A stretch of 39,638 nt of DNA, from NCBI GenBank assembly GCA_029557815.1, contig JAKQHX010000037.1, forward strand, positions 1 through 39,638. The letters run 5' to 3'. The translations under genes and the position numbers were made by a program. The notes beneath the pieces are model-generated. The model was given only the letters and a program-made list of their open reading frames with translations, had not been told where the DNA came from and made no database searches. Shown here piece after piece: positions 9,769-29,774 of this stretch (position 1 is the stretch's first letter; each line of letters starts with the position of its first letter). Source of the DNA: a bacterium (lineage in GTDB: Bacteria; Patescibacteriota; Saccharimonadia; Saccharimonadales; JAGQNK01).

Positions 9769-10152
9769 ATGCAAAAGAATCAAAAAGGCTTCACAATCAT
9801 CGAACTGCTGGTTGTGATCGTAATTATCGGTATCCTGGTTGCCTTGGCCTTGCCTAATCTATTTAGTGCACAGGCTCGCGGCCGCGACACTGATCGCAAG
9901 AACGAACTAAAGAACGCTCAGCAGCAACTGGAAACAAGTTTCAACGACACTGGCGTGTATCCAGCCGACTGGACAACTGTAGTAACCAATGCGGATGACC
10001 GTTCAGGTCCACGAAACGATGCTTACACATACACACCGACTCCATCTGGATGTACGGACGCCTGTGACGGCTACTCGCTTTCAGCAGACCTAGAAAACGA
10101 CAGCGATCCAGACGCTACGAACGGCAACTACGTACTCAACAGCGTAAACTAG
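9769..10152 (+). CDS. pilA: Major type IV pilin (PilA-like prepilin)
   Basis: A short basic leader (MQKNQKG) is followed by the class III signal GFTIIELLVVIVIIGILVAL. Cleavage by prepilin peptidase is expected between Gly7 and Phe8, and mature Glu5 is present. The mature protein is about 120 aa with a small globular head, containing a Cys pair (CTDAC) that could form a short disulfide loop. The head is rich in Asp, Asn and Thr. Strong promoter and Shine-Dalgarno elements precede it and a stable hairpin follows, both consistent with the major subunit. The prepilin peptidase gene is not in the window. Confidence 0.9.
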   Translation: MQKNQKGFTIIELLVVIVIIGILVALALPNLFSAQARGRDTDRKNELKNAQQQLETSFNDTGVYPADWTTVVTNADDRSGPRNDAYTYTPTPSGCTDACDGYSLSADLENDSDPDATNGNYVLNSVN

Positions 10153-10174
10153 TTCGTTTCGGCAAGATTCTACT

Positions 10175-10210
10175 ACCAGTCCCGATATCTCGGGACTGGT
10201 TTATTGTTGT
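10175..10210 (+). terminator. Hairpin after pilA, probable attenuating terminator
   Basis: ACCAGTCCCGA-TATC-TCGGGACTGGT forms a perfect 11 bp stem with a 4-nt loop (10175-10200), followed by a T-rich but interrupted run (TTATTGTTGT). It lies between the pilin and minor pilin genes, so it probably stops or stabilises most pilA transcripts. The next gene has an A/T-rich TGATAAAAT sequence upstream that might serve as a weak promoter. Confidence 0.7.
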
Positions 10211-10228
10211 GATAAAATAAGCACAAGC

Positions 10229-10633
10229 ATGATTCACCAGAAAGGACAAAAAGAAGAAGGTTTTTCGCTCGTTGAACTCGTAGTCGCTATAGCTGTAATT
10301 GGTTTGTTGGTTGTTGGGGTTACAAGCCTTTTCATAACTATTGAGTCAACCCAGCGCAAAACCCGGTTACTGGAAACTGCAACACGTGCCGGCGAAAAGA
10401 AAATCGAGGAGCTTCGCAACAACCACTACAATACGCTGGAAACCGACTCGGTCATAACGTTTACCGATGAGCTGCCTGACACGCTGCCCGCACCGCGCAC
10501 GGCAACCGTGGCCGTGAGTGAGCCTACGCCGGGCATTAAGCGAGTGGATGTAAACATTGCTTACAAAGATGGACGCGTAGATAAAGAAGTAGCATTGAGC
10601 TCACTCATAGGCGTGATAGGGATTGGGCAATGA
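10229..10633 (+). CDS. Type IV pilus minor pilin / pseudopilin (PilV-like)
   Basis: The prepilin signal EEGFSLVELVVAIAVIGLLVVG has Gly11 | Phe12 as the expected cleavage site and Glu at mature position 5. The rest (134 aa total) is a helix (IESTQRKTRLLETATRAGEKKIEELRNNHYN) and a small beta-rich head. The N-terminal pattern and size resemble PilV/GspI minor pilins that prime pilus assembly. It overlaps the next gene by 4 bp (ATGA). No Shine-Dalgarno is evident before the ATG. Confidence 0.85.
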   Translation: MIHQKGQKEEGFSLVELVVAIAVIGLLVVGVTSLFITIESTQRKTRLLETATRAGEKKIEELRNNHYNTLETDSVITFTDELPDTLPAPRTATVAVSEPTPGIKRVDVNIAYKDGRVDKEVALSSLIGVIGIGQ

Positions 10634-11310
10634 CACGGAGTTCGCGATATCACAACAACCAACGCGGATTTACGCTCATTGAAGTCATGGTAGCAACAGT
10701 TGTCGCCGGGATGCTGATCGTACTCATCATGACGTTCCTGGTCAACAGTGTCGCCAAAAACGCAATCGAAACCGCCCGGGCCGATATGCTTCGTGAAGCA
10801 CAGCTTACGCTAGACAATATCGGCCGTGAAGTTCGCCTCAGTGCCACCGCTGACGAGCAAAACCGCTGGGAAGACGATAACGCCCCCAACGCCCCAGCAG
10901 ACAAGTTGAGCTGGGAATCTGATGCCGATACGCTTATACTTGCCACCGCTGCTATGGACTCCAGCCAAAACATCCTCTTTGCTGACCCCTTACACTATGT
11001 CAGCAACAAAAATAACAACATCTACTTTGTCGAACACAATACATTGTACAAACGGGTACTTGCCGATCCGGTAGCAGAAAACGCAGCCGAGACTACCTGT
11101 CCACCAAATCCAAACGACTCATGCCCTGATGATCGCAAGCTTGTAGGGAACGTTACAGGCTTTGCCGTGAGGTATTTTGACAACGAGAACGAAGAAGTCG
11201 CACCATCCGCCGCCCGCTCCATAGAGCTGACAATCAACCTTGAGAGCGTCAAGTATGGAGAAACTATACAGGCAAACTTCACCACAAGGACGGTATTCCG
11301 CAATGAGTAA
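10630..11310 (+). CDS. Type IV pilus minor pilin (PilW-like)
   Basis: The prepilin signal QRGFTLIEVMVATVVAGMLIVLIM has cleavage expected after Gly13 and Glu at mature position 5. The 226-aa length and the beta-rich C-terminal head, with Cys pairs (ETTCPPNPNDSCPDD), fit PilW/GspJ-type minor pilins. It starts by ATGA overlap with the PilV-like gene and overlaps the next gene's start by 8 bp, so the three are probably translationally coupled and form one tip complex. Confidence 0.83.
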   Translation: MTRSSRYHNNQRGFTLIEVMVATVVAGMLIVLIMTFLVNSVAKNAIETARADMLREAQLTLDNIGREVRLSATADEQNRWEDDNAPNAPADKLSWESDADTLILATAAMDSSQNILFADPLHYVSNKNNNIYFVEHNTLYKRVLADPVAENAAETTCPPNPNDSCPDDRKLVGNVTGFAVRYFDNENEEVAPSAARSIELTINLESVKYGETIQANFTTRTVFRNE

Positions 11311-12724
11311 AAAAGTATTTTCCAGACTCAGCTTGGGCAAGGACACCAGAGGGGTCGTCTTGCTTACAGCGCTGCTCATTTTTTTGCTTCTGACTTTCGT
11401 CGCAGTCTCTTTGGCCGACCTCACGATTGCCCAGTACGGCAGAACAACGCGAAACGTTTCCATATCAAACTCTCTACTTACGGCAGAAGCAGGTGTGGAG
11501 GAGTCACTCTATAGCCTCAATGACAACAGTAACTTTACAGGTTTTGCAGAAACTGAATTCTTTAATAATGAGGCCCAGGGCAGAGGCACGTATCAAAGTA
11601 TCGTATCGAACGGATCAGGTCCCAACGAAAAGATCATCACGACGACAGGACGGGTCTATCGGCATAATGAATCGACAAATCCTATTAGCGAAAGAAAAAT
11701 AAAAGTTACGGTCGTCGGCACAAGCTCAAACGGCAATTCTGTGCATGCCGGAGCGGGCGGACTCATTCTATCCGGCAGTACGACTATCACAGGCTCCTCC
11801 GTCCATGTAAATGGCTTCATTGACCTACAAGGTGCCTCAAAGATTGGTACACAAGCCCAGCCCATACCAGTGAATGTTGCCAATTACAAATGCCCGAGTG
11901 GCAACAATCCTGGTCCAACATATCCGCAACTTTGCACGAGTGGTCAGCCAATAACTTTTGCGACCAGCACAAAGATATTCGGTCCCGTCTGCGCAACGGG
12001 ACAAACCAGTATCCGCGTTGCTGCATGGCAAACTGATCCAGTTATACCAAACCTACAGCCTGGCTGTATAGCACCGCATTTACCGCTCCCTACTTATGAC
12101 CGAAATGCGCACATTGCCGCCGTCACTACCACTGGCGCCGGAAATAATATCACCTATAACTGCAGTCAGTGGCAAAACCCAAATGGTTTTGTGCGAACGT
12201 GGCCTGCCAACCTAAAACTGACAGGTAACGTCTCAGCGAATAGTAGCTGTGACTTGACGATTACCGGTGACGTCTACATTACCGGTAACCTGGATATCGG
12301 TGGTTCAGCTAGAATCAGAATTGCAAACAGCCTAGGCACCAGACGTCCGGTTATCATGGTAGATGGTACCATTACCGTAGGCGGTAGCGCTACCCTGATA
12401 CCCAACAGTAATGGTACGAGTGCTCACTTCATCAGCTACCGCAGTAGCGCCGCATGTACGCCAAATTGTACAAATGTTACCGGCACAGATCTCAAGACTT
12501 CTCAAAACCTCCTAACCGTAGACGTTGCAGGTGCTGGCAACTTTCCAGGCGGGATATTCCATGCTGCGTGGGGTAAGGTTAGGATTGGCGGCAGCGGTAC
12601 AACCGGTTCAGCACTTGGACAGACCATTGAACTAAACGGTGCCGGTACCCTTACCTTTGGTACTGGCTTGTCGTCAGGGGAGAGTGTGTGGACCATACGT
12701 AGTTATCAGCAGGATTTCAATTAA
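11303..12724 (+). CDS. PilX-like pilus tip / minor pilin-associated protein with beta-helix-like repeats
   Basis: The chosen ATG at 11303 (473 aa) overlaps the PilW-like stop; the track's 11240 start lies inside that gene. The N-terminus has a PilX-type hydrophobic helix (RGVVLLTALLIFLLLTFVAVSL) without the canonical GFxxxE prepilin motif. Residues about 150-470 show repeated short Gly/Ser/Thr/Ile strands (LILSGSTTITGSSVHVNG, DVYITGNLDIGGSARI, TITVGGSATLIPN), suggesting a right-handed beta-helix or polymer-like fold. Six or more cysteines are spread through this part. It is likely an exported tip or adhesive component. This is inferred from position and N-terminus; the exact family is not recognised. 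Confidence 0.7.
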   Translation: MSKKVFSRLSLGKDTRGVVLLTALLIFLLLTFVAVSLADLTIAQYGRTTRNVSISNSLLTAEAGVEESLYSLNDNSNFTGFAETEFFNNEAQGRGTYQSIVSNGSGPNEKIITTTGRVYRHNESTNPISERKIKVTVVGTSSNGNSVHAGAGGLILSGSTTITGSSVHVNGFIDLQGASKIGTQAQPIPVNVANYKCPSGNNPGPTYPQLCTSGQPITFATSTKIFGPVCATGQTSIRVAAWQTDPVIPNLQPGCIAPHLPLPTYDRNAHIAAVTTTGAGNNITYNCSQWQNPNGFVRTWPANLKLTGNVSANSSCDLTITGDVYITGNLDIGGSARIRIANSLGTRRPVIMVDGTITVGGSATLIPNSNGTSAHFISYRSSAACTPNCTNVTGTDLKTSQNLLTVDVAGAGNFPGGIFHAAWGKVRIGGSGTTGSALGQTIELNGAGTLTFGTGLSSGESVWTIRSYQQDFN

Positions 12725-12769
12725 CGGTGGTATACTAGTTACAAAGCACTTGTGCTTAGATAGCAGAGA

Positions 12770-13849
12770 ATGTGGGCAATGAGTTCAAAACAGACATATT
12801 TTTACCACGACAAACCGGTTTTTGGGCTGGATATTGGCTTCAATAGCATCAAAGTGATGCAAGTGGAGGCCGGCAAGAAAAATAAGCACACCGTCCTTGG
12901 CTATGGAATAACCTCTTTTGACCCAGCTTCTATCAAAGACGGGGTAATTATAGATATTCCTGCTCTTGCTCAGTCAACGCAATCCCTGTTTGCCAAACAG
13001 ATTGTCGGCGATATCACGACCAGGCGGGTGGCAGTCGCAGTTCCGTCTACCCGAACTTTCAGTCAGTTATTATCGATGCCTAGGTTACCTAAAAAGGATT
13101 TACATCAAGCAGTTCTGTCCGAGATCGAACAATATATTCCAGTGCAGATTGAGGAGCTCTACATCGATTTTGATGTCATCCGGGAAACAGCCGAAGGCAT
13201 TGATCTGCAGATAGTAGCCGCTCCGAAAGCCATTATCGATTCGTACTTGGCTCTCATACGGGTGCTCGGCCTTGAAGCTGTTGCCATAGAAACCACTATC
13301 AATTCTTCGAGCAGGCTTTTCGTCCGGGCTGATCAAAGCAGCGTGCCGACTATCCTTATTGACTTCGGCTCCGTTTCGTCTGATATCACTATTTACGATA
13401 AAGGCCTGATAGCGACGGGCACTGTTCCGGGCGGCGGCGACAGCTTCACAAGCCTTATAGCCGACAAGCTGAAGGTAAGCCGGCAGGAAGCACATGTCAT
13501 AAAAACCCGATACGGCCTTGGTGTCAGTAAAAAGCAGCCAGAAATTACAGACGCGCTCAAACCTATGCTCGACCAACTCGGCAAAGAGATACGTCGTATG
13601 ATTCGATATTACGAAGAACGCTCAACCACACAAGGAAAAATCAGCCAAATAGTCACTATGGGCGGCGGCGCAAACATGCCTGGACTCAGTGAACACCTGA
13701 CTAACTCCCTACGACTTGCCACCAGGATGTGCGATCCGTGGCAAAACTTATCCTTCGACAAGCTTCAGCCTCCAAGCAGTTCAGAAAAAGCCATGTACAT
13801 AACTGCGACCGGACTTGCCATGATACAGCCAAAGGACGCCTTCGTATGA
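12770..13849 (+). CDS. pilM: Type IV pilus assembly protein PilM
   Basis: PilM is a cytoplasmic actin-like ATPase that binds the PilN N-terminus and links PilB/PilC to the alignment complex. ASKHA motifs are visible: GLDIGFNSIKVMQVE (phosphate 1), PTILIDFGSVSSDITIYDKG (phosphate 2) and VTMGGGANMPGL (adenosine). At 359 aa it is full length. ATG 12779 (MSSKQTYFYHD) is an equally plausible start, as Shine-Dalgarno evidence is weak for both. A TATACT (12731-12736) and a small AAGCA/TGCTT hairpin lie upstream and may be a secondary promoter. Its stop overlaps pilN by ATGA. Confidence 0.93.
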   Translation: MWAMSSKQTYFYHDKPVFGLDIGFNSIKVMQVEAGKKNKHTVLGYGITSFDPASIKDGVIIDIPALAQSTQSLFAKQIVGDITTRRVAVAVPSTRTFSQLLSMPRLPKKDLHQAVLSEIEQYIPVQIEELYIDFDVIRETAEGIDLQIVAAPKAIIDSYLALIRVLGLEAVAIETTINSSSRLFVRADQSSVPTILIDFGSVSSDITIYDKGLIATGTVPGGGDSFTSLIADKLKVSRQEAHVIKTRYGLGVSKKQPEITDALKPMLDQLGKEIRRMIRYYEERSTTQGKISQIVTMGGGANMPGLSEHLTNSLRLATRMCDPWQNLSFDKLQPPSSSEKAMYITATGLAMIQPKDAFV

Positions 13850-14451
13850 TTAACCTTCTCCCTCCAGCAGAAAAAGAAGCCATCACGTATGCACGCTATA
13901 ACACCCAGATACGAAGCTGGATTATTGGAGCGTTTGTTGGTCTTGCAGGAGTCGCGATCGTGGTACTCGGCGGCCAGATGATCCTAAGACAAAGCACCGA
14001 GAACTACCAGCAAGCAATCAACTCAAGCAAAGAACAGCTTCAACGACAAGACCAGAAGGAAACCCTTGAGCAAGTCAAAGGCATACAAAGCAGCTTCAAG
14101 CTGGTTGTCGATGTACTGTCCCGTGAAGTGCTGTTTTCCAAGCTTCTGCCTCAAGTTGGACAGGTAATGCCTAGTGGCACCGTACTGGAAGACTTAAGCC
14201 TCAACACAGATGCTGGCCAAACCGCCTTTGACCTTACTGCGAGCGCAAGAGACTTCACGAGCGGTTCACAAATACAAGTAAACCTTGTCGATCCCTCGAA
14301 CAAACTGTTTGAAAAAGCTGATCTCGTTAACGTATCCTGCCCTTCTGACCAGGAAGAACCCACTGAGTACCCGTGTCGTGTAACAATGCGAGTGCTGCCC
14401 GCCAAAGCGAACCAGTTCTTGCTCATCAATCCGGAGAGTAACAAAAAATGA
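13846..14451 (+). CDS. pilN: Type IV pilus assembly protein PilN
   Basis: The family hallmark MINLLPPAEK (the PilM-binding INLLP motif) is at the very N-terminus, so ATG 13846 is the start, not the track's 13729, which lies inside pilM. One membrane helix (IIGAFVGLAGVAIVVLGG, about 25-42) is followed by a coiled-coil (about 48-85) and a small alpha/beta domain. The protein is 201 aa. ATGA junctions join it to both pilM and the PilO-like gene. Confidence 0.9.
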   Translation: MINLLPPAEKEAITYARYNTQIRSWIIGAFVGLAGVAIVVLGGQMILRQSTENYQQAINSSKEQLQRQDQKETLEQVKGIQSSFKLVVDVLSREVLFSKLLPQVGQVMPSGTVLEDLSLNTDAGQTAFDLTASARDFTSGSQIQVNLVDPSNKLFEKADLVNVSCPSDQEEPTEYPCRVTMRVLPAKANQFLLINPESNKK

Positions 14452-15077
14452 GTAGCAAAAAAGCCTTCTACGCCTTACTTGGTACTCTCGCACTTGTTGT
14501 CATCTGCTCGATTGCTGGCACAATCTATGGTACTAGCATGCTGAAAAAAACTGGCGATGTTCTCCTTGAACGCAAGCTAGAAGAAGCCGTGCTCGAAAAG
14601 GACGAGGAGGCGCTCGCCCAAGCCAAGCAGGATATAGAAAAGTATAAAGAACTGGACCAGATCGCCCGGGCAATCGTGCCGCAAGAAAAGAACCAGGCTC
14701 GGACCGTACGAGAGCTCGTCGCTATCGCCGCACAGTCCGGCATCCAGATAGAGAGTATAAATTTTCCAGAGTCAACGCTGGGTCAGGAACCTGCGAAAAG
14801 CTCCAAGTCCAAAAGTTCTAAATCAACCCCTGCCGCACCACCCGGGACGACACAGCTCGTTCCCGTAGAGGGGTTGAGCGGCGTCTTTGCCATGCCGATA
14901 GATGTCCAGTTACGAGAAGATGCCCCTGTCACCTACTCGCAGCTGCTTGGTTTTCTGGAACGGCTCGAGCAAAACCGTCGAACGTCACACGTGACCAATA
15001 TCTCAATCCAACCCGACGAAGATAACCGGACACTTGTGCACTTCAGTTTACAAATTAATGCATATATAAAGCCATGA
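14448..15077 (+). CDS. pilO: PilO-like type IV pilus assembly protein
   Basis: The protein has 209 aa, with one N-terminal membrane helix (FYALLGTLALVVICSIAGTIYG), a heptad-like coiled-coil (about 28-75) and a C-terminal ferredoxin-like domain (FAMPIDVQLREDAPVTYSQLLGFLERLEQ) that matches the PilO core strand-helix pattern. A Ser/Lys linker (SSKSKSSKS) is inserted near the middle. Position directly after pilN with a 4 bp overlap supports the call. It should pair with PilN in the membrane. Confidence 0.8.
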   Translation: MSSKKAFYALLGTLALVVICSIAGTIYGTSMLKKTGDVLLERKLEEAVLEKDEEALAQAKQDIEKYKELDQIARAIVPQEKNQARTVRELVAIAAQSGIQIESINFPESTLGQEPAKSSKSKSSKSTPAAPPGTTQLVPVEGLSGVFAMPIDVQLREDAPVTYSQLLGFLERLEQNRRTSHVTNISIQPDEDNRTLVHFSLQINAYIKP

Positions 15078-22129: not shown

Positions 22130-22510
22130 TCACTTCTTTTTCTTGGCTGAACCTCTGTGCTGCATCTGTTTCTTTTCTTTCTCCAGTTTCTTATCGCTCT
22201 GATCCTCGGCTTCCAACAGATCTTTGCCCGTTACTCCCAGCTTCCTCATGATAGCGTCTTGTTTGATATTCAGGGCAAGATTATCACGGTTTTGGGTATT
22301 TTGGATTATAAATACCATAAGAAACGTAACAATGGTTGTACTGGTGTTGATTATGAGTTGCCATGTATCCGAAAATCCGAGCAGAGGCCCACTCAGTGCC
22401 CACAAGACAAGAGCCACCAACGCAGCTACAAAAACCCACGGCCGTCCAAGCGTCGCAGATGTCCTAGATGTAAATCGCGTGAAAATATCCGACTTCTTTC
22501 TGCTGTTCAT
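22130..22510 (-). CDS. Low-affinity iron permease family protein
   Basis: From ATG 22510 (AAAGG upstream) the protein has 126 aa; the track's longer frame adds 48 unlikely residues. The family pattern is FTRFTSRTSATLGRPWVFVAALVALVLWALSGPLLGFSDTWQLIINTSTTIVTFLMVFIIQNTQNRD, read in short blocks, with two membrane helices. It closely matches PF04120-type low-affinity iron permeases, whose transport role in bacteria is weakly supported. The C-terminal tail is strongly basic (KKLEKEKKQMQHRGSAKKKK). It lies 29 bp upstream of the comEC start on the same strand. Confidence 0.8.
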   Translation of the reverse strand: MNSRKKSDIFTRFTSRTSATLGRPWVFVAALVALVLWALSGPLLGFSDTWQLIINTSTTIVTFLMVFIIQNTQNRDNLALNIKQDAIMRKLGVTGKDLLEAEDQSDKKLEKEKKQMQHRGSAKKKK

Positions 22511-22655
22511 ACATATACCTTTGTGATTAATTTTTGCTATAAGTAACAATAGGATAGTATTCCTTCCGCAGGTATCGGACAGTAATATATTTAACAGCAT
22601 TAAATGGTTGTACGACCGCTCCTTCACTAGGCGTACGCGGGCAGCTAACGGCACA

Positions 22656-24169: not shown

Positions 24170-24658
24170 CTAACGGTGTTTTTTGTGCTTTTTGTCTGCT
24201 TTGTGTCGGTAGGTCAGCCACATAATGAGGAGCGTCAGTATAGCCGCTACGCCCACGATAATATTCTGAGATTCACGCAGCAAAGCGCCATACTGGTTAG
24301 CAAATACCTTTTCCTGCGCATTGCTGTCGAGTAACGGTAGACTAAGCGCAGCAAGTGTCAAGCCAGTCGCAACCAACAACGGGACATGTAGCAGTACTTT
24401 TGATGTGGGTAGGGTCCTTTTGAGTAGAAATAGGCTTAGCCCGACCGGCAAAAGCAGTAGGATACATTGAGCGAGCATGTGCGCATTTTGGCCACGTACT
24501 ATCATGCCAAGCGCCAACCCTGCGTCGTCTCCCAAGTACAATACAAGTAAGTTTCCAGCTGCCACACTCAAGAAAAGAAATACACCGCTCACCCTAAATA
24601 GCAAGGCAAGTAACACCGGCACAATGGCAATTACCGCCAAAAGAATCAGAGAGTCCAT
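24170..24658 (-). CDS. Multi-pass membrane protein of unknown function
   Basis: From ATG 24658 the product has 162 aa and about five hydrophobic segments: LILLAVIAIVPVLLALLF, VFLFLSVAAGNLLVLYL, AQCILLLLPVGLSLFLL, VPLLVATGLTLAALSL and IIVGVAAILTLLIMWL. It ends with a His/Lys-rich tail (RHKADKKHKKHR). No family motif is recognised. TGc-TATCAT lies 6 nt upstream of the ATG, predicting its own leaderless message although it follows the DUF192 gene by 34 bp on the same strand. Confidence 0.65.
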   Translation of the reverse strand: MDSLILLAVIAIVPVLLALLFRVSGVFLFLSVAAGNLLVLYLGDDAGLALGMIVRGQNAHMLAQCILLLLPVGLSLFLLKRTLPTSKVLLHVPLLVATGLTLAALSLPLLDSNAQEKVFANQYGALLRESQNIIVGVAAILTLLIMWLTYRHKADKKHKKHR

Positions 24659-24664
24659 GAGCTC

Positions 24665-24670
24665 ATGATA
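24665..24670 (-). promoter_or_regulatory. Extended -10 promoter of the membrane protein gene
   Basis: TGC-TATCAT on the minus strand, 6 nt before ATG 24658. The same TGC-TATCAT occurs 8 nt before ATG 26666, which supports it as a real -10 element. Confidence 0.45.
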
Positions 24671-24692
24671 GCATAAGCACTTACTCAAATAC

Positions 24693-25241
24693 CTAGAACT
24701 TCAAGCGTTGCCCGACGTGCAGGTCAGCCGCCTTCACAATACCGCTATTCACTTCCACGACATAGCGCGCCGACTCCGGCCCACAGAAAGATTTCGGATA
24801 GGTATCTGGCGTGACGCCTTCTATCATGTATACGACTTCCTTCTGTTCACTTAGCCATAGTATGTCCAGGCTGAAGTTCATGTCCTTCATCCACATGCAA
24901 TACTCGGCCGGACGTATAAAATCAAACAACATGCCCTCGTCTTTGCCCATGGATTCGCGGCCCGAAAGTCCCAACGTACGCGCGCTGTTGGTTGAGGCTT
25001 TTTCCAGTCGGACACAATTGTCCAGCCTGTAGGCATCACCTTGTGTTTCAGGACTGAGAGCGGTCTTGGGTATACGAAAAGCACAGGCTGCATATGTCGA
25101 CTTAGGGCTAAAACGGTGAAAAACCAGCGCAACAAGCAACAGTGCCAATAGACTTGCCAGCACTACACGAACACGCCAATCACTGGCCCAACGCTTGATA
25201 CTATGCGCCAACTCGGTCGCGACGACGCTTGCCTCGTGCAT
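24693..25241 (-). CDS. DUF192 family membrane-anchored protein
   Basis: The protein has 182 aa, with an N-terminal membrane helix (VVLASLLALLLVALVFH, about 25-41) and an extracytoplasmic DUF192 domain (about 75-180). The family pattern is clear: GLSGRESMGKDEGMLFDF, then CMWMKDMNFSLDILWL, and VVEVNSGIVKAADLHVGQRL. DUF192 is a small beta-rich fold of uncertain role. Cysteines at the N-terminal part and in YCMWM could pair outside the membrane. The start overlaps the rimK-like gene by 41 bp; a TTG at 25211 would reduce this overlap. Confidence 0.82.
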   Translation of the reverse strand: MHEASVVATELAHSIKRWASDWRVRVVLASLLALLLVALVFHRFSPKSTYAACAFRIPKTALSPETQGDAYRLDNCVRLEKASTNSARTLGLSGRESMGKDEGMLFDFIRPAEYCMWMKDMNFSLDILWLSEQKEVVYMIEGVTPDTYPKSFCGPESARYVVEVNSGIVKAADLHVGQRLKF

Positions 25242-26106
25242 TTTGCTCTACGTAATCAATTATTTTGCCTGCGACATCGCGTCCAGTAATGAGCTCCGGC
25301 GTCTTGAGACTTGCCGACGAATTAACCTCGAGTACGAGTGGGCCACGTTCACTGCGCATCATGTCCACACCGCATATAGGAAGTCCCATGGCTTTTGCGG
25401 CTTTTTGGGCCGTTTTGCGCTCTTCATCGGTCAGCTTGACTGGCATACCTTCACCGCCCTGATGCGTGTTTGAGCGAAAGTCATCATCCAGGCTCTGGCG
25501 TTTTACGCTCGCGACGACCTTGCCGCCGACCACGAGTGCACGGATGTCCATACCGGCCGATTCCTCGACGAATTCCTGTACAAGGAAGTTCACGCCTTCC
25601 ACATAAAAAGCCTGCATTACAGCTTGCGCCGCCTTCTTGGTCTCCGCCAGTACGACGCCGTTGCCGTGCGTGCCGCGAGCCACCTTGATAATGAGCGGTG
25701 TGCCACCGGCAAGCTCAATAACCTCGTCAAACTCTGACGTCTCACGGGCAAACACTGTCTTCGGCACGCCGACACCGTATTTTGCCAGCAGCTGATACGA
25801 CCGCAGCTTGTCGCGCGAACGGTTGATTGCGATTGAGCTCGAGGTCGTAAAGATACCTTGCATCTCAAACTGGCGTACTACTGAAGAACCGTACTTGGTA
25901 AAACTCTGGGCAATGCGTGGGATGATCGCATCGACATCAGTCAGCGGCTCGCCGTTGTAGTACACAACAGGATTGTCCTTTTCGATGGTCATGTAGCACT
26001 TGTTGTAGTTGATGACCCGCACATTATGACCACGCGCCAGAGCCACCTCTTTGAGGCGCTTCGTGGAATAATTTCCCGGACCTTTGGATAAGATAATAAT
26101 ATTCAT
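25201..26106 (-). CDS. RimK-like ATP-grasp alpha-glutamate ligase family protein
   Basis: The protein has 301 aa. The ATP-grasp core shows the lysine-bearing strand LIIKVARGTHGNGVVL, the hinge strand FLVQEFVEESAGMDIRALVV, the RimK-type block DDFRSNTHQGGEG and the Mg-binding LEVNSSASLKTPE. RimK in E. coli adds glutamates to ribosomal protein S6, while relatives ligate amino acids to other peptides or cofactors. The target here is unknown. A basic tail (ARGKRRRDRVGA) is unusual. It lies 12 bp after the RimB-type protease gene and forms one operon with it. Confidence 0.88.
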   Translation of the reverse strand: MNIIILSKGPGNYSTKRLKEVALARGHNVRVINYNKCYMTIEKDNPVVYYNGEPLTDVDAIIPRIAQSFTKYGSSVVRQFEMQGIFTTSSSIAINRSRDKLRSYQLLAKYGVGVPKTVFARETSEFDEVIELAGGTPLIIKVARGTHGNGVVLAETKKAAQAVMQAFYVEGVNFLVQEFVEESAGMDIRALVVGGKVVASVKRQSLDDDFRSNTHQGGEGMPVKLTDEERKTAQKAAKAMGLPICGVDMMRSERGPLVLEVNSSASLKTPELITGRDVAGKIIDYVEQNARGKRRRDRVGA

Positions 26107-26118
26107 CGTCTTTGACTC

Positions 26119-26592
26119 TCAAGTTTCCTTCAGTTGCGACTGTAATGCCTGAGACCGGCTTTTTTCTCGTGCGGTAAGTGGTTTGCCCTTTTTGACATCC
26201 ACAATAAACTTTCCGTGTAGTACGTTGCGGCCCACAAGCACAGGATACACTTGTGAGCTTCTGTCTGCCAGCGTGAAAGTTGCCCGGATATTCTTTCCTG
26301 CTAATTTCGTGAGCAGTCTGACCTTGAAACGCTTCTCCGACTGTCCGTTAGAACTCGCCACAATCACCGACGCGTACTCATCAAATATATATACTTGACC
26401 GGAAAATGCTGGGTGTTCTTTTCCCAAAAAAACAACCTGCAATTTCCCATCAACTACCTTGGCACTCGATACCCAAATCGCCGACGTCTTTGCACCGGTG
26501 TCAATCCTAGCCGGCAAGCCATCAAGGCCAATTTCCGGAAAAGATATTGGCTCGGCACGTCCAATTACTTTTTTGGTAAGTTGCTTATCCAT
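26119..26592 (-). CDS. Retropepsin-like RimB-type protease (ATP-dependent zinc protease family)
   Basis: The chosen ATG at 26592 gives 157 aa. The family core is GLDGLPARIDTGAKTSAIW, containing the aspartic DTGA(K)TS motif of retropepsin-like enzymes, then RFKVRLLTKL and YPVLVGRNVLHGKFIVDV. These proteins were named ATP-dependent zinc proteases but look like single-lobe aspartic proteases. They commonly sit next to rimK-like genes (RimB in Pseudomonas), and this pairing holds here. A near-consensus promoter 10 nt before the ATG drives the operon. Confidence 0.88.
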   Translation of the reverse strand: MDKQLTKKVIGRAEPISFPEIGLDGLPARIDTGAKTSAIWVSSAKVVDGKLQVVFLGKEHPAFSGQVYIFDEYASVIVASSNGQSEKRFKVRLLTKLAGKNIRATFTLADRSSQVYPVLVGRNVLHGKFIVDVKKGKPLTAREKSRSQALQSQLKET

Positions 26593-26602
26593 ATTATCTA
26601 CT

Positions 26603-26631
26603 ATTATAGCATAATAAGCTGTATTTTTCAA
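26603..26631 (-). promoter_or_regulatory. Sigma70 promoter of the RimB/RimK operon
   Basis: TTGAAA (26626-26631), exactly 17 bp, and TGC-TATAAT (26603-26608) on the minus strand. The predicted start near 26596 leaves a leader of about 4 nt before ATG 26592 and no Shine-Dalgarno. Confidence 0.75.
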
Positions 26632-26648
26632 CATATTTTACGTTCATA

Positions 26649-26657
26649 TGCTATCAT
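26649..26657 (+). promoter_or_regulatory. Extended -10 promoter of the 307-aa gene
   Basis: TGC-TATCAT (TATCAT 26652-26657) on the plus strand, 8 nt before ATG 26666. The -35 region overlaps that of the divergent protease operon. The element lies over the track's upstream ATG (26648), so 26666 is the better start. Confidence 0.5.
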
Positions 26658-26665
26658 TACCCAGT

Positions 26666-27589
26666 ATGAACTTAATAAGCACTGTACGCCAGTATTACTT
26701 GGGGCATTTTGATGAGTTGCCGTCTGACAAACAGTTCCACTTTGCAAGTCGCTTAGCTGCCTGGGAAAACCTGCCGGCAGCCCATGACAAGCTAAAGTTA
26801 CTGCGCCAAACCATAGCTCCAGAGAAAGAGATTGAGAAAAGCTTGGCGGCACTCCTTCATAGCCCTCCGGAAGCAAAGATCAATGCTGCAAGTACGCGGC
26901 AAGCATACTTTGAGCAGTATTCTGAACTGCGACCCTTCATGCTTGCTCTTTTTAGGGTCCGACATTTGCGGGATATATACGGTATAGCTGCGAGAGAGAG
27001 CTTGTTAGAGCTGGTTTCCGAGGACCAGCTTGGCGACCTCGCATCCCAACTGATGGAGGACGAAAAAGCAATGCGTGTTCTTTCGACGTATGCCGTCAAC
27101 TACCTTTACCTTCTGGACCATATACTTTTTAAAGATAGGGACGGTACATGCCTTGATGTCCAACGACTTTACGATATTGGCAGAGCAGCCCAAGCGAACG
27201 ACCCAGAAGAAATACAGCTCTTCATATATTTCTATACGCACTGCATTATTGGTGAATCAAATTTCTACCTGTGGCAAACTAGATCAAGCTACAGGAGTAT
27301 ATACCAGCGAATGATAGAGGACCTGGAAAGTCTTATTGGCAAGAACTTCCGTAACATAAACCTTGATAACAAGCTTGAGTTCCTCGTATGTTGTCGGATA
27401 CTCAGTTACGCTTCAAAACTTGAATCCAAGATATATCAGGAGTGCACACAATCCATCAGTATCGAAGGAGACTTTCTTGTAGACACCCTGAACGACTTTG
27501 CTCAATCTGAAAAAACATCATTTTCCGACTCTGAGCATCGCAACGTACTCTTCATTATGAGTGGCTCGCCATACAGGCACGCCGCCTAA
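26666..27589 (+). CDS. Unrecognised alpha-helical protein in the ATP-grasp cluster
   Basis: The protein has 307 aa from ATG 26666 (MNLISTVRQYYLG). It is almost entirely amphipathic helix by inspection, soluble, with no membrane segment, P-loop or metal motif. Aromatic/acidic helices such as LRPFMLALFRVRHLRDIYG, FIYFYTHCIIGESNFYLWQ and LDNKLEFLVCCRILSYASKLE may form a helical repeat bundle. It diverges from the protease-RimK operon and its stop overlaps that of the second ATP-grasp gene by 4 bp (convergent). Position suggests a partner or substrate adaptor of these enzymes; the family is unknown to me. Confidence 0.7.
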   Translation: MNLISTVRQYYLGHFDELPSDKQFHFASRLAAWENLPAAHDKLKLLRQTIAPEKEIEKSLAALLHSPPEAKINAASTRQAYFEQYSELRPFMLALFRVRHLRDIYGIAARESLLELVSEDQLGDLASQLMEDEKAMRVLSTYAVNYLYLLDHILFKDRDGTCLDVQRLYDIGRAAQANDPEEIQLFIYFYTHCIIGESNFYLWQTRSSYRSIYQRMIEDLESLIGKNFRNINLDNKLEFLVCCRILSYASKLESKIYQECTQSISIEGDFLVDTLNDFAQSEKTSFSDSEHRNVLFIMSGSPYRHAA

Positions 27590-28488
27590 TCACCGATTTT
27601 GTCGAATAGTTGCCGAAGCAGCTGCTTCTTTTCCTCTAATAAAGCCCCTTTGCGAAGCTGGGGCTGCGTATTAACCTCCAAGAATATATATTCGTCTGAA
27701 TCATACCGCGGCATGATGTCAACTCCAGATATCATGAGATTGAGCCTGTCGCTAATACTCCGTGCTTTCTGAATAATATCATCTGGCAATGTATGGAGGG
27801 GTAACTTGGTTGCCTGGCCGCCTTTGGATGTATTGTTGATATGCGAAGTTATGTCGCCTCGTCTCTCAAAGAGCAACATATCGTCACCGACTATAAGTAG
27901 CCGATAGTCCCTATCGTTTTGGCAAAATTCTTGTAGCAAGAAGTCTGTGCCTGTCTCGCTTGAAAGTCTTGCCTGTATATCCTGCATATCACGTACTACG
28001 TAATTTGAATCGCCATGTGATCCCACATTTGTTTTGAGCACCGCCGGGAATCCAGAGGTGTGTTCGGCATATTCGGCCAGCAGTTGCTTGTCGACCGCAT
28101 AAACCGTCTTGAGAAAAGGTATGCCAAGCTCAAGAAAGTAGATTGCTTGTGCAAACTTTGTTCCTGGGTAATAGAGCGAGTAGTCATTTACGCAATCGAT
28201 TTTGTGCCATGCAGCAAAACGACTCATGTAGTAGGCGTATGCACTTCGTAGACGCATCTGTGGTCCGCGAATGTATATAACGTCAGAATCGCTCATCTCA
28301 ACATTATTTTTGGTGTCAAAAGCACGAAAGGTCCCTGGCTCTATAGTAAATACAATCTGGTCCAAAAAAGTAGCACGAATCGTTGCCTTGTCCGACAAGG
28401 TGTCTCTGGTATAACGCTCAAGCAGCGTAAACGACTCGTAGTCAATGGGATCACTACTAACCCCGCCAACAAGGTGGATTTTCTTCAT
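27586..28488 (-). CDS. Second, divergent ATP-grasp family ligase
   Basis: The protein has 300 aa. The ATP-grasp core is visible from about residue 135: FPAVLKTNVGSHGDSNYVV (ATP-binding lysine and Gly-rich loop), FLLQEFCQNDRDYRLLIVGDDM, the basic block ERRGDITSHINNTSKGGQATKL and the Mg site YIFLEVNTQPQL. The N-terminal 100 residues (MKKIHLVGGVSSDPIDYESFTLLE, VIYIRGPQMRLRSAY) differ from RimK, suggesting a different acceptor. A TATACT 9 nt before the ATG gives it its own promoter. It converges on the 307-aa gene with a 4 bp overlap. Confidence 0.8.
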   Translation of the reverse strand: MKKIHLVGGVSSDPIDYESFTLLERYTRDTLSDKATIRATFLDQIVFTIEPGTFRAFDTKNNVEMSDSDVIYIRGPQMRLRSAYAYYMSRFAAWHKIDCVNDYSLYYPGTKFAQAIYFLELGIPFLKTVYAVDKQLLAEYAEHTSGFPAVLKTNVGSHGDSNYVVRDMQDIQARLSSETGTDFLLQEFCQNDRDYRLLIVGDDMLLFERRGDITSHINNTSKGGQATKLPLHTLPDDIIQKARSISDRLNLMISGVDIMPRYDSDEYIFLEVNTQPQLRKGALLEEKKQLLRQLFDKIGD

Positions 28489-28679: not shown

Positions 28680-29774
28680 CTAGAAAATGCCCCGTTTTTT
28701 GTGGTTTTTAAACTCTTCGAGCAGGGCTTGCTGCTTCTTGCTGAGCTTGGTTGGCGTTTCAACATGTACAGTCACGATGTGTGCGCCCCGGCTTTCACGC
28801 TTGAGGTGCGGGACGCCGTGGCCGGAAAGTTTGAAATCCGTGCCAGCCTGCGTGCCGGCAGGGACCTTCATCTTGACTGGCCCATCCACCGTATCGACTT
28901 CGATTGTCGTACCAAGCGCCGCATCTACCATGCCGACCGTTTCCTCGCTCAAAATAAGGTCGCCTTCTCGGGTGAACTTCTTATGAGGCTTAACACGTAC
29001 ATTTACGTAGAGGTCGCCTTTTGGCCCGTTCGCAATCGCCTCACCATGTTCGCGCAGCCGGATCGTTGCGCCGTCGTCTATGCCTGCTGGGATTTTCAGT
29101 CCAATTTTTTGGGATTTGCGCTGCGTACCCTTTCCGTGGCAGACCGTACATTCTTTTTCCGGGATTCTGCCGGCACCTTTGCACTTCGGGCAGACGGTGG
29201 CTTGCTGGATATTGCCAAAAACTGTGCGCATCACCCTCGTGACTTGGCCGCTACCACCACATTCGTCACAAGATTTCATCTCGTAACCTGGTTCAACAGT
29301 CTTGCCTTTGCAGTGTTCACACGTGTCTTCAAGGTTTAGGTTTAGATCTACTTCTGTGCCAAAAACAGCCTGTTCAAATGTGATGTCGACATTTGTTTCT
29401 ACGTCGCGGCCTCGCGTCTGACGGCTGCTGCGCGGGCCTGCTCCGCCGCCAAAAAAGCTGCTAAAGATATCACCCAGCCCCATATCACCAAAATCGAAAT
29501 TGATATTCTGTCCCTGGCCGCCGAAGCCGGCAAATGGATCACCTCCGCCACCGTTGCCGCCTACGCCCGCATGGCCAAACTGGTCGTAGCGCTGACGCTT
29601 GCTTGGATCCTTGAGCACCTCGTAGGCTTCGTTGATTTCCTTGAACTTGGCCTCATCACCGCCTTCTTTATCGGGATGGTACTGAACAGCGGCTTTCCGA
29701 AAAGCCTTTTTGATCTCATCCGCAGATGCGCCTTTGCTGATGCCTAGTACTTCGTAATAATCTCTTTTGGCCAT
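28680..29774 (-). CDS. dnaJ: Chaperone DnaJ
   Basis: DnaJ is the Hsp40 co-chaperone of DnaK. It has a J domain with HPD (VQYHPDKEGG), a Gly/Phe-rich region (about 72-110) and four zinc-binding CxxCxGxx repeats (CEHCKGKT, CDECGGSG, CPKCKGAG, CTVCHGKG). The C-terminal substrate domains follow (GDLYVNVRVKPHKKFTREGDLI). At 364 aa it is full length, class I. It ends in KKRGIF. It has a recognisable sigma70 promoter of its own in addition to possible read-through from dnaK. Confidence 0.97.
   Translation of the reverse strand: MAKRDYYEVLGISKGASADEIKKAFRKAAVQYHPDKEGGDEAKFKEINEAYEVLKDPSKRQRYDQFGHAGVGGNGGGGDPFAGFGGQGQNINFDFGDMGLGDIFSSFFGGGAGPRSSRQTRGRDVETNVDITFEQAVFGTEVDLNLNLEDTCEHCKGKTVEPGYEMKSCDECGGSGQVTRVMRTVFGNIQQATVCPKCKGAGRIPEKECTVCHGKGTQRKSQKIGLKIPAGIDDGATIRLREHGEAIANGPKGDLYVNVRVKPHKKFTREGDLILSEETVGMVDAALGTTIEVDTVDGPVKMKVPAGTQAGTDFKLSGHGVPHLKRESRGAHIVTVHVETPTKLSKKQQALLEEFKNHKKRGIF

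Follow-up and report, generated by a model that had tools for sequence, protein, structure and literature searches.

The locus described here is a real, conserved module and a variant of the Rim/Rlo-type ligase-retropepsin systems. It probably functions in the reversible tagging of C-termini with amino acids, which would probably be glutamates, and it differs from a plain RimB-RimK pair by an added subunit, formed by a second ATP-grasp ligase (GRASP2) and an all-helical protein (HEL).

The locus and its genes

The window, which is the complete stretch of 39,638 nucleotides that was analysed, lies on contig C12 of a genome of 933 kb. The named relatives having the same locus are Candidatus Saccharibacteria. 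The features of the locus are as follows.

24170-24688, minus strand: small multi-helix membrane protein, 3' of the DUF192 gene and kept in relatives, with a probable ATG at 24658
24693-25241, minus strand: DUF192 protein (PF02643, E 7.6e-27, Pfam)
25201-26106, minus strand: RimK, ATP-grasp alpha-L-glutamate ligase (RimK domain, 1.8e-54; Rimk_N, PF18030, 4.3e-37)
26119-26634, minus strand: RimB-type retropepsin-like protease (Zn_protease, PF05618, 2.4e-12; DTGA motif)
26648-27589, plus strand: HEL, all-helical protein by its model, placed in the DUF3541 superfamily by profile matches
27586-28488, minus strand: GRASP2, second ATP-grasp ligase (PF08443, 1.2e-15; PF18030 absent)
28680-29774, minus strand: dnaJ, a conserved anchor beside the module, by synteny in relatives, and outside the module proper

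The five open reading frames from the DUF192 gene to GRASP2 have the strands and coordinates given for them in the sequence-only reading, including the 41-bp overlap of rimK with the DUF192 gene (25201-25241) and the 4-bp overlap of the stops of the converging HEL and GRASP2 genes (27586-27589). The likely start of RimB is at 26592, giving a protein of 157 aa, and that of HEL is the ATG at 26666 (307 aa), which is backed by the relatives. Because the five-gene arrangement recurs in relatives, it is not due to chance. The DUF192 protein has a membrane helix at its N-terminus, and the small membrane protein was not assigned to a family in the Pfam search. No PADLOC model of a known anti-phage defence system was matched by six window proteins or by the fusion protein of locus L139, and the PHROGs matches are to RimK-type ligases only. 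Elsewhere in the window, there are type IV pilus-like genes at 9769-15077 (N-methylation motif proteins, PilM and a PilO-like protein) and a low-affinity iron permease family protein at 22130-22654 (PF04120, 4e-37).

The RimB-RimK-DUF192 unit

RimK scores 251 bits with TIGR00768 (cut-off 143.4) and falls narrowly under the stricter NF007764 equivalog (315 versus 331 bits). Its ATP-grasp metal-site motifs are preserved, and the nearest solved structures in the fold search are those of Pseudomonas RimK and E. coli RimK. The protease exceeds the cut-off of PF05618 (47.3 versus 27 bits) and stays under that of the NF052261 equivalog (56 versus 200 bits); judged by these profiles, it would be a RimB-like protein rather than RimB proper. 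Its assignment as a retropepsin-like protease is borne out by the D[TS]G motif, which is present in 88/88 RimB domains checked.

RimB occurs in 46 of the 61 genomes of the relatives sample. In the fetched loci, rimB adjoins rimK, usually followed by the genes of the DUF192 protein and/or the small membrane protein, and dnaJ is often adjacent. The DUF192 gene adjoins rimK in many relatives, with frequent overlap, and the small membrane protein is likewise kept 3' of rimK/DUF192 in many of them. The RimB-RimK-DUF192 unit (with the small membrane protein) is an ordinary, order-wide unit that is not specific to the HEL module. Several of the genomes covered have RimB-RimK fusions, which had been described before (PMC11957791).

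In Pseudomonas, RimK adds glutamates to ribosomal protein S6 and RimB trims poly-Glu tails (PMC11957791). The S6 protein of this genome ends in ...DDEKDEE, so that the terminal Glu asked about in the sequence-only reading is indeed present, as Glu-Glu; this tail would be compatible with glutamylation by RimK, and proves nothing. In an order-wide comparison, an S6 tail in EE is found in 13/19 genomes with RimK versus 3/10 without it (Fisher p 0.064, the genomes being related). A literature search on RimK in Saccharibacteria and on polyglutamylation in Patescibacteria found no paper.

HEL and its place in the DUF3541 superfamily

The 307-aa protein had been taken as unrecognised, which is not wholly so, as profile matches place it in the DUF3541 superfamily. 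When aligned with Vibrio DUF3541 by hhalign, HEL matches along its length (97.2% probability, E 3.3e-11, 277 columns). The window protein itself scores 18.9 bits with DUF3541 (PF12060), under the Pfam gathering score of 28.2, and three patescibacterial relatives exceed this score (L038, 31.5; L184, 51.4; L185, 157.3 bits). From these profile scores, HEL is assigned as a divergent member of DUF3541. The match is thus to a known family, but this family is itself of unknown function, and a literature search found no paper on DUF3541.

In an alignment of 33 HEL sequences, 14 positions, mainly polar, are invariant; numbered from 26666, these invariants include H25, R29, R78, Y188, T191, H192, Y201, D234, E238, D273, E290, H291 and N293. 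Most of them are also found in the residue table of Vibrio DUF3541, and about ten polar positions are in common (H, R, R, Y, T, H, Y, E, H, R, N). The invariant His, Arg, Glu, Asn, Tyr and Thr residues argue for a putative binding or active site. HEL differs from the Vibrio proteins in two respects: the latter are secreted, whereas HEL has no signal peptide (by eye), and HEL has ATP-grasp partners, whereas no ligase was found nearby in the Vibrio DUF3541 neighbourhoods.

The AlphaFold2 model of HEL (pLDDT 94.9, pTM 0.93) is almost wholly helical. A fold search of this model against the PDB and viral models gave nothing significant, and a profile search of HEL against the PDB gave no relative. 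An alpha/alpha-toroid-like fold, to which only weak matches pointed (complement C5 and intrinsic factor, TM-score about 0.35), was set aside.

Three further observations concern HEL-like sequences. A bona fide DUF3541 gene (5.8e-46) lies beside an ATP-grasp-Mur ligase fusion and two more ATP-grasps (L185:960-4622). In one genome, stop codons interrupt the HEL gene (L183:98-1187). The ATP-grasps of 419-541 aa in L022, L023 and L025 have a degenerate HEL-like C-terminus without the TH and EHRN motifs.

GRASP2 and its association with HEL

GRASP2 scores 78.2 bits with TIGR00768, under the cut-off of 143.4, and is, by its profile matches, only a RimK-like ATP-grasp, although it keeps the metal-site motif GVD...FLEVN. 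The difference of its N-terminus from that of RimK, seen in the sequence-only reading, holds, as this domain is divergent and PF18030 (Rimk_N) is not matched.

HEL is present in 22/393 genomes of the order sample (E<=0.01, weak or fragmentary matches counted) and in 7/380 genomes of the phylum sample. At most full-length HEL loci of the order sample, GRASP2 is convergent on HEL, with RimB/RimK alongside, and the stops of the convergent HEL/GRASP2 pairs of Saccharibacteria overlap in 17/19 cases. Across Patescibacteria, a GRASP2-type ATP-grasp is adjacent or fused to HEL at 29 of the 35 named HEL loci, a count that includes fused forms and the Gracilibacterium fusion described below. The remaining six are L115 and L125 (other ATP-grasps nearby), L119, L122 and L124 (none adjacent; L122 has rimBK) and L116 (on a contig of 3.6 kb). 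In genomes G037 and G188, there is only one RimK-family ATP-grasp each. GRASP2-type ligases are widespread in the order, also in the absence of HEL, and are often fused to RimB, in either order. The proposed co-occurrence of the genes is supported, with the qualification that the RimB-RimK-DUF192 unit and GRASP2 occur order-wide, also where there is no HEL.

In a simple distance test, made without reconciliation, the HEL and GRASP2 distances are correlated with r 0.67 (0/5000 permutations), as compared with 0.30 for HEL and RimK; the mutual correlation exceeds that of either of them with RimK. This is consistent with co-inheritance plus losses. In the GRASP2 domain tree, the fused domains cluster together with an SH-aLRT of 96 and are separated from the convergent domains; those of the latter that are linked to HEL are scattered over several places. 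HEL therefore partners more than one ATP-grasp lineage.

The grouping of the parts into one module, proposed in the sequence-only reading, is supported by fusions in relatives, in which they are joined as GRASP2-HEL-RimB, GRASP2-RimB and RimB-RimK; GRASP2-RimB exists as a single polypeptide. GRASP2-HEL fusions of ~590 aa, with HEL as the C-terminal half, are found in Moranbacteria and other lineages, Gracilibacteria also have a GRASP2-HEL fusion, and L118 encodes an ATP-grasp-GRASP2-HEL protein of 936 aa. In Saccharibacteria, L041 encodes GRASP2-HEL-RimB (773 aa), followed by rimK with a 4-bp overlap, and L127 encodes a second such protein, which is cut by the contig end after DSG. The ATP-grasp-HEL fusion of a Gracilibacterium (code 25) has lost the FLEVN metal motif in its ATP-grasp while its HEL is intact, and HEL may therefore not need ligase activity.

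The model of the GRASP2-HEL fusion, made from 8 sequences, has a pTM of 0.88 and a pLDDT of 88.9. As this pTM exceeds what is expected for freely placed halves, the model suggests that HEL docks rigidly on GRASP2. The best fold matches of the ATP-grasp half are ArgX/LysX and RimK, the identity with LysX/ArgX being only about 20%. These enzymes act on a C-terminal Glu, to which, in the case of LysX/ArgX, an amino acid is added on a carrier protein.

Neighbours in other lineages and known systems

In Moranbacteria and other lineages, GRASP2-HEL comes after an ATP-grasp_ST-retropepsin fusion, and in L139 and L181 the locus also holds a 7TM_transglut gene. MATCAP (PF08014) carboxypeptidase genes lie near HEL in three loci of other lineages (L125:4194-5162, L184:5273-6268 and L135:3993-5150); the Gracilibacterium fusion adjoins a gene of this family. 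Animal MATCAP-family enzymes are deglutamylases acting on tubulin (PMC10499314). That HEL is repeatedly found with partners of the ligase, protease and MATCAP types supports a role in tail tagging. A class A penicillin-binding protein gene is close 3' of GRASP2-HEL in five loci (L118, L129, L130, L139 and L140).

The likeness to RimB-RimK of Pseudomonas, and to its fusions elsewhere, lies in the RimK ligase adjoining a retropepsin-like protease, but the literature covered mentions neither a second ATP-grasp nor HEL, nor any GRASP2-RimB or GRASP2-HEL-RimB fusion. The rlo operon of P. aeruginosa encodes the retropepsin RloA, which cleaves poly-Glu substrates in vitro, the 7TM inactive transglutaminase RloB and the ATP-grasp RloC (PMC12239564). 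The Moranbacterial loci resemble it in having 7TM_transglut and the ATP-grasp_ST-retropepsin fusion, but RloA is a separate, secreted protein, whereas the Moranbacterial protease is fused to the ATP-grasp and GRASP2-HEL is extra. The window locus also differs from rlo, as a Pfam search found no 7TM_transglut among the module genes.

Discussion

The tagging reading draws on families, motifs, neighbourhood and fusions, all read from sequence, and on a predicted docking; from these we infer the chemistry, the residue, the substrate, the reversibility and the role of HEL. RimK and GRASP2 would be ATP-grasp ligases that extend acceptor proteins or peptides by residues at their C-terminus, with S6 most likely glutamylated by RimK. 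HEL would be a dedicated subunit of GRASP2, docked on the ligase, and it would either present the acceptor tail or bear a second active site for the same tail. The tagging may be reversible, and there may be two substrates or a two-step reaction. Against the tagging reading stand the few HEL loci with no adjacent GRASP2, the single RimK-family ATP-grasps of G037 and G188, the lost metal motif of the Gracilibacterium fusion, the secreted Vibrio proteins with no ligase nearby and the low score of RimB with its equivalog. We consider it possible, but doubtful, that HEL/DUF3541 is a new class of enzyme, such as a transferase or an editing hydrolase, whose substrate is the protein tail that the partner ligase also acts on, such that GRASP2-HEL has two activities and makes a reversible tag distinct from S6 glutamylation.

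A simpler explanation is that the locus is a plain RimBK pair for S6 glutamylation and that HEL and GRASP2 are unrelated arrivals in a conserved dnaJ-rimBK locus, as could be suggested by the order-wide dnaJ-rimB-rimK-DUF192 synteny, by the rarity of HEL and by the EE tail of S6. This explanation is largely contradicted by the fusions, since GRASP2-HEL-RimB and GRASP2-RimB exist as single polypeptides and GRASP2-HEL is fused in other Patescibacteria lacking the dnaJ-rimBK synteny, and it appears very improbable. Equally poor are the prospects of a cluster in which ligases make a small, perhaps graspetide-like, peptide and HEL is a tailoring enzyme of this biosynthesis: there are several ATP-grasps per locus, some with a protease, and fold matches to the graspetide ligase PsnB, but ArgX/LysX and RimK outscore PsnB in the fold search, the NCBIfam graspetide models remain far under their cut-offs and a non-systematic viewing of the loci brought up no short precursor ORF that recurs.

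Somewhat less improbable, but still unlikely, is an envelope module, comparable to Pseudomonas rlo, in which the ligases and HEL modify peptidoglycan or an envelope peptide. The 7TM_transglut and ATP-grasp_ST-retropepsin genes adjoining GRASP2-HEL, the adjacent penicillin-binding protein genes, the Mur ligase fusion of L185 beside its DUF3541 gene and the secretion of the Vibrio proteins all agree with it, as do the morphology and antibiotic-sensitivity defects of rlo protease mutants (PMC12239564). However, HEL, GRASP2, RimB and RimK of the window have no signal peptide (by eye), and some of the loci with a penicillin-binding protein neighbour also hold dnaN/dnaA-like genes (by eye), so that this adjacency may be mere origin-proximal synteny.

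In the tagging reading, the module supplies a functional context for DUF3541. Bacteria with reduced genomes would then have elaborated ligase-protease tagging by means of a second ligase, together with a helical partner that recurs.
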